The notes under the pieces: model-generated | Databases searched by the model: none | What the model was told of the DNA's origin: nothing | Seen by the model: only the letters and a program-made list of their open reading frames with translations | In this document: positions 9,717-56,404 of the stretch, in pieces | Numbering within the stretch: position 1 is the stretch's first letter | Layout: every line of letters starts with the position of its first letter | Position numbers and translations under genes: made by a program | Source of the DNA: Bacteroidota bacterium | Lineage (GTDB): Bacteria > Bacteroidota > Bacteroidia > NS11-12g > UBA955 | NCBI GenBank assembly: GCA_027488835.1 | Contig: JAIYAW010000007.1 | Location: forward strand, 248,001-312,000 | Length of the DNA: 64,000 nucleotides | Direction of reading: 5' to 3'

Positions 9717-11333
9717 TTAATGAATTATAATTTTTTGAGTAATTGATTGATTCGCAACATCAACGGAAATGAAGTAAATTCCACTGCTGAATTGATTCAA
9801 ATCAATTTTGTTTACGTAAATATTTGTTTTGTAAACAACTTTACCCAAAGAATTAATAAGCGCAATTTGCTTGACAAGTGTTTTTTGTCCCTCATTAGAA
9901 AAAGACAAATTCACGATATCGATTGCAGGATTGGGGTAAATGTTCAATACAATTTCTTTGTTCAATGAATTTATTGCAGATGTAACAGGAACAGTACAAG
10001 GTTTTGAACCATTGTAATTGTTCACTGTAGTTGAACCGTTTACAATAAATTTAAAAGTATACTTTCCAGCACTTGTCCAACTATAATCAACCGTATCTTT
10101 TTCTGAACCAACGGTATAGGTTAATTTATACCCATCTCCTGTAGGATAAGGATAGCAATGTGTGATAGTAGCACCTTTGAGTGGCGTTAATGCGGGTCGA
10201 ACTCCTTTTGCAGCAGCCTGAGGAATAATTTGCAAAGTAGAATCTTCGGTAACTTTTCCTACCATATTTCCAATCATGTAAGGAGCTGAAGACGAAGAGT
10301 GATAGTGATATGCCCCATTGCTGCCATAATGACCATGATTTGCATCTAGGGTTTTCATTGCAGAGCCATCTGGTTCTAGTGATCCATAGATTGCAAATCC
10401 ATCTAAGGCAAAAGCGATTGGCGATGTTTTAGGGATTTTGTTATACAAAACTGTTGGAGCAATGTGATAATGATAATCATCGGCACGACCGCTATGTCCG
10501 CCAAAATTGTCTAATTGACCATCTAAAAAGGCATCAACGCCGGTATTGGTATAAGGATTGAAAATTGCAATACCATTCACAGCCACAGCAACTGCACCTC
10601 TTAAAAAGTGCTTATTATTTACTGGGACAGGCGTAGTAGCAATTACAGGATTCAAAGGAATTGACCAAGCGTTTGCCCCAACGTAACATTGTGGAATTGG
10701 AACTTGTTGTTGCCAAGATGTAATGCCGATCATCATTTCATGATCTGCAATTCCTTTCGATTCCACATAAAAGTAGGTATTGTCCCAACGCGTATTGATG
10801 GTTGGTTTATAGTATGAAAACGCAGAATCCATAAAAGTTGGACTGGTGGTAGTGGCTCTTTTACCAATATTTCCTGACTTAAATCCGATGAAAGAAACCA
10901 ATACCAATGCTCCTGCTACAGGAACGAACAATCGTTTGTTAGTTTTTGCTAAAACTAAAAATATTAGTCCACCCAAAATAATTAAACCCACTTCAATCAA
11001 ATTGAATTGAGATGTTGAATTCTGTGAAGTCGTATTTCGTAAATTGGTTTGTTTAATTTTCTGATTAATTCTTTCAATTTCAACAATTTTGGTATTAACA
11101 AATTTCTGATCGCTTGAGGTCAAGTCAGCAATTGGCAAACCAATTACAGCGCCATCCGCTTTTTCGAAAAATGCCGAATCATTTCTAGAGAAATAGAATG
11201 TGGCATCGATCACCGCATGTTGTTTTTGCAAATACCATTGTTTGGTATTTACATTGTCGTATCGAGCAGAATGGGCAGAAACTTTTCCAAAAGAAAAAAT
11301 CAATATTCCCAAAACTGCTATAAAATTTTTCAT
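9717..11333 (-). CDS. YHYH-domain protein with N-terminal SHD1-like segment, TM hairpin and T9SS sorting domain
   Basis: A 538-residue protein. In order: signal peptide (1-20), a segment at about 30-82 resembling the SHD1 fold (KQWYLQKQHAVIDATF ... ADGAVIGLPIADLTSSDQKF), a hydrophobic hairpin with two probable membrane helices (about 112-129 and 134-151), the YHYH domain (about 270-370, with DDYHYH and GAYHYH), and a type A T9SS sorting domain (YPNPAIDIVNLSF ... SSGIYFISV). YHYH proteins are secreted and of unknown biochemical function, with His-rich metal-like motifs. Two membrane helices inside a T9SS cargo protein are unusual. It lies 11 bases from the upstream metallophosphoesterase gene. 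Confidence 0.85.
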   Translation of the reverse strand: MKNFIAVLGILIFSFGKVSAHSARYDNVNTKQWYLQKQHAVIDATFYFSRNDSAFFEKADGAVIGLPIADLTSSDQKFVNTKIVEIERINQKIKQTNLRNTTSQNSTSQFNLIEVGLIILGGLIFLVLAKTNKRLFVPVAGALVLVSFIGFKSGNIGKRATTTSPTFMDSAFSYYKPTINTRWDNTYFYVESKGIADHEMMIGITSWQQQVPIPQCYVGANAWSIPLNPVIATTPVPVNNKHFLRGAVAVAVNGIAIFNPYTNTGVDAFLDGQLDNFGGHSGRADDYHYHIAPTVLYNKIPKTSPIAFALDGFAIYGSLEPDGSAMKTLDANHGHYGSNGAYHYHSSSSAPYMIGNMVGKVTEDSTLQIIPQAAAKGVRPALTPLKGATITHCYPYPTGDGYKLTYTVGSEKDTVDYSWTSAGKYTFKFIVNGSTTVNNYNGSKPCTVPVTSAINSLNKEIVLNIYPNPAIDIVNLSFSNEGQKTLVKQIALINSLGKVVYKTNIYVNKIDLNQFSSGIYFISVDVANQSITQKIIIH

Positions 11334-37816: not shown

Positions 37817-38410
37817 ATGAGAAATTTAAAAAGAAAGTTGCTCGCTTCGGGCATAATAGCAATCATGACCGGTTGTTTTTTTGGGAAATCAAAAACCATA
37901 GATGCACAATCAGTTCAATCAAGTCAACCATCGGAATCAATTTATGGCATTAAAATAAATACATTAGATGAGAAGACCCCAATTGATTTAAATCAATTCA
38001 AAGGTAAAAAAATATTGTTTGTAAATACTGCTAGCGAATGTGGTTTTACGCCTCAATACGAAGATTTACAGAAGCTTCAAGAAAAATATCCTGAAAAACT
38101 TGTCATTATTGGAAGTCCTTGTAATCAATTTGGTGGTCAAGAACCTGGCAATTCTGAGCAAATTGGTTCATTTTGCAAAAAGAACTACGGTGTTACGTTC
38201 CAATTGACACAAAAATTAGATGTAAAAGGAACAAAACAACATTCTCTTTACGCTTGGTTGGGTCAAAAGTCAAAAAATGGTGTATTGGATTCTGAAGTAA
38301 AATGGAATTTCAATAAATATTTAATAGACGAAAATGGCCATTTATTAGGCTACTTTGCTTCTACTACTGGTCCATTATCGAACGATATTACCAGTTTAAT
38401 AGAAAAGTAA
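37817..38410 (+). CDS. glutathione peroxidase family lipoprotein
   Basis: A 197-residue thiol peroxidase of the glutathione peroxidase family. The catalytic Cys is in [15 protein letters not shown], with the conserved Gln/Trp partners in [14 protein letters not shown] and [11 protein letters not shown]. It uses Cys in place of selenocysteine. The N-terminus has a lipobox-like AIMTGC, so the protein may be a lipid-anchored periplasmic enzyme. The ATG at 37817 ([10 protein letters not shown]) gives a normal signal sequence; the ORF start at 37790 would not. Members of this Cys type often use thioredoxin rather than glutathione. Confidence 0.9.
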
Positions 38411-49986: not shown

Positions 49987-50050
49987 TTCTGCAAAAGTAA
50001 TTCAACATAAAATGTGGGAATTCATTTTTCTTATGTTTTTTTGCACCATA

Positions 50051-53897: not shown

Positions 53898-54332
53898 TTA
53901 GTAAGTGCGAAGTTAAAGTTATTTTTGAGGTGAAATGTAAAAAATACCACGCTGCTTTAATAAGTGCCGCAATTCATATGGCTCCATATATTACTGTTTC
54001 TCATGCTATCCTGAGTTTAATGGGCAATAGAATTCTAACAAAATTAAAAATATTTTTAATTTCCGCCATCATTAATTATACCATTTGTGTGCGATATCTA
54101 TTTCTCCACTGCTAAATCAACCACCATATATCCTGTCGATATTCGATTTTCAAATGCTATAACATCACTTTAATTTTGCATTTTCTCATCAAAATGTGTT
54201 AAAAAAATATAACAATATATACTATTTTCGCTAAAACCCATTTGTTTTCATTTAAATAACATAGAATAAATTCTATTAATGATTTCTTTACATAGATTTG
54301 AGAGGCAATAAAATCAACTGAAAATCACACAC
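53898..54332. other. 435-base AT-rich intergenic region
   Basis: No convincing gene. A 61-codon plus-strand frame (53930-54115) has no family signs and an odd composition. The region holds TGTTA/TAACA (54197-54214, 8-base spacer), a TAATTTTG box (54171-54178), an inverted repeat (54261-54276) and a second -7 box (54293-54300), so it is best read as the regulatory region of the gene at 54333 plus the ribD upstream. Confidence 0.55.
54261..54300 (+). promoter_or_regulatory. promoter with overlapping inverted repeat for the gene at 54333
   Basis: ATAGAAT (54261-54267) and ATTCTAT (54270-54276) form a 7-bp inverted repeat with a 2-base spacer. A TTC (54271-54273) within it sits 19 bases before TAGATTTG (54293-54300), a match to TAnnTTTG. 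The repeat would cover the -33 position, a good place for a repressor or activator. The ATG is 33 bases downstream. Confidence 0.45.
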
Positions 54333-54962
54333 ATGTTAAAACTTGGAAATCTCATTGAGAAAGATGTTTTCTTATTAGATTTTGAAACATCAGATTTTAA
54401 TCATTCTTGGCAGGAAAATTACAAATTCCATCTCTTTCAAAACGAATTTAAATCATATGAAATTGGAATTCCTTTCAATCATAAAAATCTATTGCTCGAC
54501 GTAGTAGTTCAATTTATTGAATCCGTAAAAGATTTCAAAGGCAGTTACTTTATCTACTTTGATGTAAAACGAGATACAAAATTACTTAAGATAGTAGAAA
54601 GTAATCAGATTGAATTACACAATAAAAAAGTATTTTTATTGCCCGAAAAAAACTTAAAATATTCAGAATTCTCATCCGAATTTTGGAAAATGACCATCAT
54701 GGGCTATGAAATTAATATTTTAAAATGCGATAGGATGTCTCAATGTCAAAGGGATCCCAAAATTATCAATAAATATTTATTGAAAGGCGCAAGAATTGGA
54801 ATCACCGGATCAAATAAACATTCATTTGGTTTTCTACACAAAAGAAGAATCGCTCAGTTATTTAAAGAAAATTTAATCGATTATTGGATTACCGAAACAA
54901 TCAATCAAAACGATTCTTCTTATTTTCAGGAAGTAAAACTTAAATCAGATATCCTAAAATAG
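54333..54962 (+). CDS. cytoplasmic protein of unknown function
   Basis: A 209-residue soluble protein, Lys-, Asn- and Phe-rich, with no signal peptide, membrane helix or motif that I recognise. The C-terminal third is basic and helical (FGFLHKRRIAQLFKENLIDY). It has a long regulated-looking upstream region and is convergent with the Crp/Fnr regulator, 2 bases away. Low GC and lack of family resemblance suggest a lineage-specific gene. Confidence 0.7.
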   Translation: MLKLGNLIEKDVFLLDFETSDFNHSWQENYKFHLFQNEFKSYEIGIPFNHKNLLLDVVVQFIESVKDFKGSYFIYFDVKRDTKLLKIVESNQIELHNKKVFLLPEKNLKYSEFSSEFWKMTIMGYEINILKCDRMSQCQRDPKIINKYLLKGARIGITGSNKHSFGFLHKRRIAQLFKENLIDYWITETINQNDSSYFQEVKLKSDILK

Positions 54963-54964
54963 AT

Positions 54965-55675
54965 TTAATCATCTAAATTAGCCGTTGAAACCAACTTGGC
55001 ATGTGAAATAACTTTTATCTTTTTCCCTTCCAACGAAATAATATTATCGGATTTAAACTCAGACAGCAATCGAATTACAGTTTCGGTTGCGGTACCCACT
55101 AAGTTTGCCAATTCCTCCCGAGAAAGTTTCAAATTCAATGTTGAGTTGTCGGCTTCAAAACCGTAAGATTCTTTTATAAATAGAAGGGCTTCTGCCAAAC
55201 GTTCCCTAACAGGCCTTTGCGCCAAATGCGTAATACTAATTTCTGCTTTTCTTAAGTCATCGCTCAACAACTTCATGATTTCCATTGAAAACGCACCATC
55301 TTTTTGCAAAATTCCCATAAAAAGTTCCTTGGGAATGAAACAAACCCCAGAATCTTCAAGCGCTACAGCTGAAACGCTGTATTTATCTTGACTCAACAAT
55401 GATCTATAACCCATCAAATCGCCGGGTTTAACCAACCTTAAAAGCTGCTCTTTGCCATCGTCTCCAAACTTAGAAAGTTTGATTTTACCTGAATTTACGC
55501 AGTAAATCCCGAATGGACGTGAACCTTCATGAAAAATCACTTGGCCTTTTTTGTAAAAAGTGCAAATTCTTTCTTCGTTTATTTGCTCAATAGAATTATA
55601 CTTAACCTTGCATAATACAGACGCAAAGCGTTGTGTGCAAGTTTTACAATCTAACTGGCTATGCTCGAGACTCAT
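54965..55675 (-). CDS. Crp/Fnr family regulator with four FNR-like cysteines
   Basis: A 236-residue transcription factor: a cyclic-nucleotide-binding-like sensor domain (about 30-150), a dimer helix, and a C-terminal helix-turn-helix (about 185-215, LSREELANLVGTATETVIRL). Cys10, Cys13 and Cys22 (LDCKTC ... VLCKV) plus Cys112 (SGVCFIP) line up with the FNR cluster cysteines of E. coli (Cys20, 23, 29 and 122), although the third N-terminal gap is longer (8 rather than 5 residues). An oxygen- or NO-sensing [4Fe-4S] cluster is plausible but not shown. A TAAATTTG box on the minus strand (55696-55703) lies 20 bases before the start. Confidence 0.88.
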   Translation of the reverse strand: MSLEHSQLDCKTCTQRFASVLCKVKYNSIEQINEERICTFYKKGQVIFHEGSRPFGIYCVNSGKIKLSKFGDDGKEQLLRLVKPGDLMGYRSLLSQDKYSVSAVALEDSGVCFIPKELFMGILQKDGAFSMEIMKLLSDDLRKAEISITHLAQRPVRERLAEALLFIKESYGFEADNSTLNLKLSREELANLVGTATETVIRLLSEFKSDNIISLEGKKIKVISHAKLVSTANLDD

Positions 55676-55844
55676 AAGGATGAATAAACAATACCCAAAT
55701 TTATGCGTTTAATTCCGGTAATGGTTTTTTTGTTTGAGAAATTTCAACTACCGTAGAATAATTATTAATTCAATGGCGAGTATGATGCGTGCAGCGCCTC
55801 TCACAGAACAGTGAGCTTAGAACAAAATGAATGGCAATAAGTAT

Positions 55845-55858
55845 TTGATTTTTAACAA
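55845..55858. promoter_or_regulatory. FNR-like half-site palindrome
   Basis: TTGAT-TTTT-AACAA matches the FNR consensus TTGAT-N4-ATCAA at 9 of 10 specified bases. It lies between the Crp/Fnr gene and the small secreted protein gene at 56015, about 170 bases upstream of the former's start. It could serve autoregulation or control of the neighbour. AT-rich sequence makes chance matches possible. Confidence 0.45.
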
Positions 55859-55983
55859 AACCTGATGGAATTAAATTTACTCCAACTTAAGTAAAAATTA
55901 AATAATGAGTACGTTGGTTTATAAATTTATGAATAAAAAATAAATTGTAGATAAAATTCTATTTTATTCTAATTGGAAAATAT

Positions 55984-56014: not shown

Positions 56015-56404
56015 ATGAAAAAAATCGCATTCATTTTAGTCCTTCTTTTTAGCTTTACCAAAAGCGCCTCAGCTCAAGTAGCTGCAACGGAGGTTGAAGA
56101 ATCTCAATTCACTAAAAATCCTTCAGCTTACGTTGGTAAAACAATTAAGATTAAAAACATATCTGTTTTTTTGCCAGACGCCCCGATTGCAAATAAACAA
56201 GGCTCAAAGCCATGTAATCCTCCAACAGCAGGCAGCAAAATGATTAAATTAGAATTTGCTAATCCTAATTTTAATGGATGTTTTGAAATTCCAGTGAATA
56301 TATGTGGATCAATACCTAAAAATTTAGAGTGTATTGGCAACGTAATTATCAAAATAGATGCTACAGGAAATTACAAAATTATTGATTGTAAAATTCAACC
56401 GTAA
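56015..56404 (+). CDS. small secreted protein of unknown function
   Basis: A 129-residue protein with a signal peptide (about 1-20, ending SASAQ). The mature part begins with a segment resembling OB-fold nucleic-acid-binding domains (TKNPSAYVGKTIKIKNISVF), but without wider family evidence. It has five Cys residues (KPCNPP, NGCFEI, NICGSI, LECIGN, IDCKIQ), which could form disulphides in the periplasm or outside. A strong shared terminator follows at 56419-56470. Confidence 0.75.
   Translation: MKKIAFILVLLFSFTKSASAQVAATEVEESQFTKNPSAYVGKTIKIKNISVFLPDAPIANKQGSKPCNPPTAGSKMIKLEFANPNFNGCFEIPVNICGSIPKNLECIGNVIIKIDATGNYKIIDCKIQP

Follow-up and report, generated by a model that had tools for sequence, protein, structure and literature searches.

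FNR is the textbook oxygen switch of bacteria, and its ligand pattern is used to recognize such regulators in genomes; in Escherichia coli FNR, the ligands are the cysteines at positions 20, 23, 29, and 122. FnrL and FixK control the cbb3 oxidase in Alphaproteobacteria, and the regulator described here resembles them as a Crp/Fnr protein tied to cbb3 genes but differs from them in phylum, operator, and Cys set. The one study found to assign a Flavobacteriales Crp/Fnr homologue groups it with the carbon regulator MalR (PMC8510549). A search of open-licence literature found no description of regulators with the Cys arrangement reported below as class (i).

The window analyzed is a stretch of 64,000 nt from a Flavobacteriales-type genome (G000; 2.49 Mb, 9 contigs, 99.37% complete). 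The genomes of its relatives are metagenome derived and labeled mostly Flavobacteriales or Bacteroidetes, with lake and pond names among them, and the host is probably a freshwater bacterium. A gene on the minus strand at 54965..55675 encodes a 236-aa predicted Fe-S sensor, which a preliminary description of this DNA had assigned to the Crp/Fnr superfamily. That assignment is borne out by Pfam families, orthologues, and an AF2 model: the protein contains both a beta-roll (cNMP-binding) domain (PF00027, 82.7 bits) and a Crp-type winged helix-turn-helix domain (PF13545, 57.8 bits), and its fold matches. Viral contigs searched for relatives of the regulator contained none.

The AF2 model, built from 28 homologues (mean pLDDT, 86.6), is closest to a Porphyromonas gingivalis protein (2gau), the best PDB match both by sequence (E 2.8e-37) and by fold (VIA Z 29.2, rmsd 1.5, 218 aligned residues), which differs in having Tyr at the place of C59 and Leu at that of C112. 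The match to cAMP-binding GlxR (Z 27.4) is above those to holo-FNR of A. fischeri (5e44, Z 24.6, rmsd 2.6, 225 aligned; 9qll, Z 25.3), so the fold does not reveal the signal. The nearest Fe-S sensor in the PDB is A. fischeri FNR. With the curated NCBIfam Fnr model (NF008365), the protein scores 93 bits versus a cut-off of 228. It shares with FNR of Gammaproteobacteria the Crp/Fnr fold, the recognition-helix Glu and Arg, and the operator core TGAT-N4-ATCA, and C10, C13, and C112 fall on three FNR ligands when it is aligned to A. fischeri FNR (9qlt). It differs in having Ser19 at the place of the third ligand and C59 where FNR has Ala, in the recognition helix (Ile rather than Ser), and in the outer operator base (A rather than T).

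From the gene itself, the co-variation of its cysteines, gene order, a deletion, and the layout of an operator, we infer, with a probability of about 0.68, that the window protein is an Fe-S activator of a cbb3 regulon, responsive to O2 (or NO), which was orphaned by the deletion and has one clear target left. The protein would be a dimeric Crp/Fnr activator with an oxygen-labile [4Fe-4S] cluster held by an N-terminal CxxC (C10 and C13) and by C59 and C112 of the beta-roll. With the cluster intact at low O2, and possibly when NO is absent, it would bind directly to tandem ATGATNNNNATCAT dyads placed 22 bp apart, the nearer of them centred approximately 41 to 42 bp before the start, and in related species would switch on the cbb3 oxidase genes. 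In G000, the adjacent oxidase cluster has been deleted, the regulator has been kept under purifying selection, and a single clear tandem-operator target, a gene for a 129-aa protein, has been retained.

An FNR-like regulator tied to a cbb3 oxidase is ordinary in kind, and the unusual points are three: the predicted shift of a ligand to C59, an operator of rigidly paired dyads, and the persistence of the regulator once the neighbouring regulon was lost. A class with one ligand moved into the beta-roll would, if true, escape the FNR ligand pattern. With dyads set 22 bp apart and TTTG 30 nt on, the rigid layout would make much of the regulon readable from sequence, and the window provides a natural experiment in which a regulator outlasts the deletion of its main target. 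The chances seem about even that these features define a broad Bacteroidota class of O2/NO sensors, in which an FNR-type [4Fe-4S] cluster is built from CX2C plus C59 and C112 of the beta-roll, lineages have swapped between C59 and a tight third N-terminal Cys for the fourth ligand, and cbb3 genes are driven through paired dyads exactly two helical turns apart.

Association with the cbb3 oxidase cluster

In each of the seven loci that include both the regulator and the cbb3 cluster (L094 to L100, from congeners and sister genera), the regulator stands at the end of the cluster. The order is CcoI-type ATPase, CcoN-O fusion, CcoP, CcoG, FixH, DsbD_2, and regulator, preceded in most by a 170-aa gene; the families were assigned on L095, and the small ccoS frame before ccoN was identified by reading of the sequence. 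FixO and FixG_C occur in seven of 14 genomes of the genus, all of which have the regulator. With G000, the regulator is present in 8/14, and the other six genomes, two of them <85% complete, are without the regulator or FixO/FixG_C. FixO and FixG_C were sought in G000 and not found, and its sole match to the ccoN profile, far below the cut-off, was taken for an aa3-type oxidase. Both marks of a cbb3-linked regulator, adjacency to the cco cluster and operators before cco genes, are found in congeners, and in G000 the cluster is deleted. Cytochrome bd was considered as a surviving target and dropped, as PF01654 was found in 0/14 genomes of the genus.

Since the gene closes the cbb3 cluster in congeners and its Cys set co-varies (see below), the reading of the protein as an FNR-like Fe-S regulator responsive to O2 or NO, as put forward in the preliminary description, is supported indirectly. 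The link is looser elsewhere: the regulator adjoins a CcoI-type gene in G015, G021, G031, and G034, with no ccoN in the stretch examined, and many genomes have ccoN without a close regulator. Order- and family-level relatives also contain fusions of Crp to a response-regulator-like domain (L021 to L027, L030, and L031; the receiver-like domain was named by reading of the sequence). Their Crp part has 34 to 43% identity to the window protein, but the receiver-like input replaces the Cys set, with no CxxC, C59, or C112. Crp matches of similar frame length lie on the ccoN contig in G014, G025, G033, G040, G053, and G055, the fusion being seen in the sequence for G025 and G055 only. As related Cys-less Crp proteins with a receiver-like domain are found close to these oxidase genes in other genomes, a swap of the sensor may have taken place.

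Paired dyads and the 129-aa gene

In congeners, ATGATNNNNATCAT or a near copy is located upstream of ccoS and of the operon of the 170-aa gene and ccoI, with a second, weaker dyad 8 bp later. The candidate operator defined by computational footprinting consists of two ATGATNNNNATCAT dyads 22 bp apart and precedes ccoS, the ccoI operon, and the 129-aa gene. Every ccoS promoter examined (11/11) has the pair at 22 bp, centre to centre, with a TTTG ending exactly 30 nt on. These pairs score 15 to 19 of 20, and 300 shuffled regions gave a maximum of 16, with five scoring ≥15. The TTTG is at 30 in six of eight 129-aa promoters examined; the two exceptions belong to a gene remnant (G013) and to a promoter mis-paired by the script, which chose a pair upstream of the visible one (G028). 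The eight ccoI-side promoters examined have dyads and in no case TTTG at 30. In the c11 rows of G016 and G028, the scored pair differs from the strict-pattern match. The TTTG offset is 30 in 30 of the 69 distinct tandem sites in the loci examined (next commonest offset, 9 of 69 sites). Searches with a strict tandem pattern matched 76 times across 27 of 57 genomes, and its reversed control gave 9 matches in 6.

The consensus of the Bacteroidetes -7 promoter element is TAnnTTTG. With the -7 element at its usual position, the nearer dyad would presumably be centred near -41 to -42 and would therefore occupy an activator place. The regulator gene itself has a likely -7 element, TAAATTTG (55696..55703, minus strand), which we take to be one from this consensus, and a similar element lies upstream of the congener orthologues.

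The distributions of operator and regulator do not coincide fully. Strict tandem matches occur despite the absence of the regulator in G003 (one) and G006 (two), and in G029, G020, G024, and G026, where a class (i) regulator is present, none was found. Order-level relatives (L293 to L296, G047 and G042 among them) have comparable tandem sites, with the spacing of 30 nt, and since G047 and G042 hold Cys-less REC-Crp homologues, this layout may extend beyond the Fe-S form. Genes whose products look secreted or signal-peptide bearing are preceded by paired dyads, with TTTG exactly 30 nt downstream, in L293 to L296 and L298 (G047, G042, and G021), which hints that the targets may differ between genera. 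Many 36-bp paired palindromes, which may be operators or a repeat element, are present in L280 to L292 (G041 and G052), mostly matching both strands and several just after stop codons; G041 and G052 belong to the same order, and each has a class (i) regulator and no ccoN over the cut-off.

The strict pattern occurs at one place in G000 (contig C7, 43740-43774) and its reversed control at none. The site precedes an intact 129-aa gene, with TTTG at 30, and this gene comes after one for Fe-S assembly and one with an S4 domain. An 87-aa antisense ORF over the site (C7:43739) was taken as spurious. Nine single dyads are present in the genome, of which two are intergenic by reading, that at C7:43740-43774 and another at C8:161774. 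The 129-aa protein is 91 to 93% identical to its G008 and G010 versions, which share the tandem operator, and homologues lie 3.8 to 4.5 kb from ccoN in G040, G053, and G055. No Pfam family over the cut-off and no PDB match by profile were found for it; searches of NCBIfam with the family gave scattered weak matches to helical proteins and, for the G000 member, none. No match to the 129-aa protein was found in G002, G004, and G011, where the regulator is present. Only a remnant of the gene is left in G013. G006 has a truncated copy and no match to the regulator, and yet dyads still precede the gene there, so dyads can persist for some time after the regulator is lost.

The persistence of dyads in G006 is also consistent with a reading in which the G000 regulator is a decaying relic, functionless since the cco deletion, and the 129-aa gene is not its target. 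The loss of the cco genes and the faster evolution of the orphan fit such decay: by three-way subtraction, dN on the branch to the G000 regulator is ~0.047 versus 0.024 for G010 and 0.016 for G008. Nevertheless, the frame is intact, all six cysteines are present, and dN/dS of the G000 regulator versus those of G008, G010, and G013 is about 0.05 to 0.07 (0.03 to 0.04 among those three), figures that are rough because synonymous changes are near saturation. The low ratio indicates that the regulator is still under purifying selection, and both the operator and the 129-aa gene are intact, with the protein conserved as described above. A functionless relic is consequently considered unlikely.

Cysteine co-variation and predicted ligands

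The window protein has six cysteines, at positions 10, 13, 22, 38, 59, and 112. The preliminary description, which listed neither Cys38 nor Cys59, placed Cys10, Cys13, Cys22, and Cys112 near the FNR ligands; all four are present and C10, C13, and C112 align, but C22 does not, the third-ligand place being occupied by Ser19. In an alignment of 28 homologues with identity down to 26% (A3), C10 (codon 55646..55648, minus strand, as are all codons given here), C13 (55637..55639), C59 (55499..55501), and C112 (55340..55342, the equivalent of FNR Cys122) are invariant in 28/28 rows, in an alignment where just 12 columns are invariant; neither C22 (55610..55612) nor C38 is. The N terminus reads CX2CX8C, as opposed to the CX2-3CX5C that, with a central Cys, constitutes the FNR ligand set.

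Cysteines were also tallied in 112 Crp-family proteins, comprising loci from other searches and 70 of 113 matches listed from 118 genomes of the phylum; this is not a random sample, because the search profile was itself of class (i) and the 70 were for the most part the highest-ranked matches. Among the 58 proteins with CxxC, C112 is present in 58, C59 in 49, and C22 in 22. Among the 54 without CxxC, C59 is present in none and C112 in four, one of which is a fragment without its N terminus (L048), tallied here and left out of the tree. All nine CxxC proteins without C59 have a tight, FNR-like third N-terminal Cys (CX2CX4C or CX4CX2C). Every CxxC protein therefore has C59 or a close third Cys, and a few have both; the regular expression for the tight third Cys also matched five C59 proteins, three of them via a Cys upstream of CxxC. 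Class (i), defined by CX2C, C59, and C112 with no tight third Cys required, comprises the window protein and 48 others of the 112. The rows are related, so these counts are not independent events. When the columns of C59 and C112 were left out of the tree, the three Cys classes required 4 changes (shuffled mean, 42.9); the tree is a quick build in which 50/108 inner branches are poorly supported.

The co-occurrence of these residues and the alternation between C59 and a tight third Cys argue for C10, C13, C59, and C112, rather than the FNR set, as the predicted [4Fe-4S] ligands, with C59 probably the fourth. The same cysteines could instead bind zinc or haem, or form a redox switch of the thiol/disulfide type, with no Fe-S cluster. 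There is precedent in the Crp/Fnr protein FixK2, for which one report describes a redox-sensitive Cys thiol (PMC12937710). FNR chemistry is a better fit to four co-varying cysteines that include the equivalents of C20, C23, and C122 and to the cbb3 linkage, and these other chemistries appear quite improbable.

A further arrangement retains the cluster but has it bound by the canonical FNR-type set of C10, C13, C22, and C112, with a longer loop before C22 and a structural role for C59. C112 sits at the FNR Cys122 place, and C22 is kept in 16/16 sequences of the tree clade that holds the window protein. When the four residues named in the preliminary description were followed through the orthologues, however, C10, C13, and C112 kept together and C22 did not: it is absent from 36 of the 58 CxxC proteins, all 36 of which have C112. 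Its replacements in relatives include H, N, E, K, S, G, A, and others, and L013, 56% identical to the window protein, has His at this position. The CxxC proteins that lack C59, meanwhile, all have a tight third Cys (9/9). C22 is thus probably not an essential ligand, and the canonical set appears quite improbable. Another locus (L044:1776-4524) has three closely spaced Crp-family genes, of which one is in the opposite orientation to the others; two of the three carry CxxC, C59, and C112.

The deletion scar and the FNR-like box

Comparison by blastn with L094, L095, and L096, together with gene order, places a scar at 55777..55942, where ~9.3 kb of the congeners, the cco cluster, has been replaced. 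Homology stops at 55776, which in the L094 alignment falls within the DsbD_2 gene close to its end, and restarts at 55943 (L095) or 56006 (L094). The flanks are collinear with those of congeners (L094 and L095 to L098 taken together): the genes at 50012, 51413, and 52021, ribD, and the gene at 54333 lie on one side and the gene at 56015 and the next two on the other. The gene at 54333..54962 (plus strand) is a conserved neighbour of the regulator by gene order, and no Pfam family was found in it. The gene at 56015..56404 (plus strand) encodes a small secreted protein and lies beyond the cco cluster in L094, L095, L097, and L098; it stands beside the regulator because the intervening cluster has been deleted. 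The loss is probably derived, since in the tree the window protein clusters with those of G008, G010, and G013, genomes that have the cluster. That the absence of cco genes is an artefact of a metagenome assembly is very improbable: G000 is in 9 contigs and <100% complete, but the junction lies within a contig and has novel sequence, completeness is 99.37%, and the searches for FixO, FixG_C, and ccoN described above argue against it. A Na+/H+ antiporter gene (PF06965 in L095) located between ribD and the 54333 gene in congeners is also missing from the window, at 53898-54332.

The scar contains the FNR-like box on which the preliminary description based possible control of the regulator by itself and of the gene at 56015. 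The sequence exists at 55845..55858 (TTGATTTTTAACAA, a 9/10 match to TTGATNNNNATCAA) and is near chance level, as an equally good site is present in 6% of replicas that a Markov model generated for the 339-bp gap between the two genes. No tandem operator was found in this gap. Neither form of control is upheld, the box lying in a scar that is unalignable to three congeners and the adjacency of the 56015 gene being due to the cco deletion. The E. coli FNR box was dropped as the operator: congener cco promoters carry ATGATNNNNATCAT, and the perfect TTGATNNNNATCAA places examined, 15 of 38 in G000 (5 for the reversed pattern), are all inside ORFs, so the box is no promoter mark here. The window contains 17 one-mismatch matches to TTGATNNNNATCAA versus 9.35 expected, a number reached in 0/100 shuffles. 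Perfect copies are present in the window twice, at 9792-9805 and 37983-37996, each inside an ORF.
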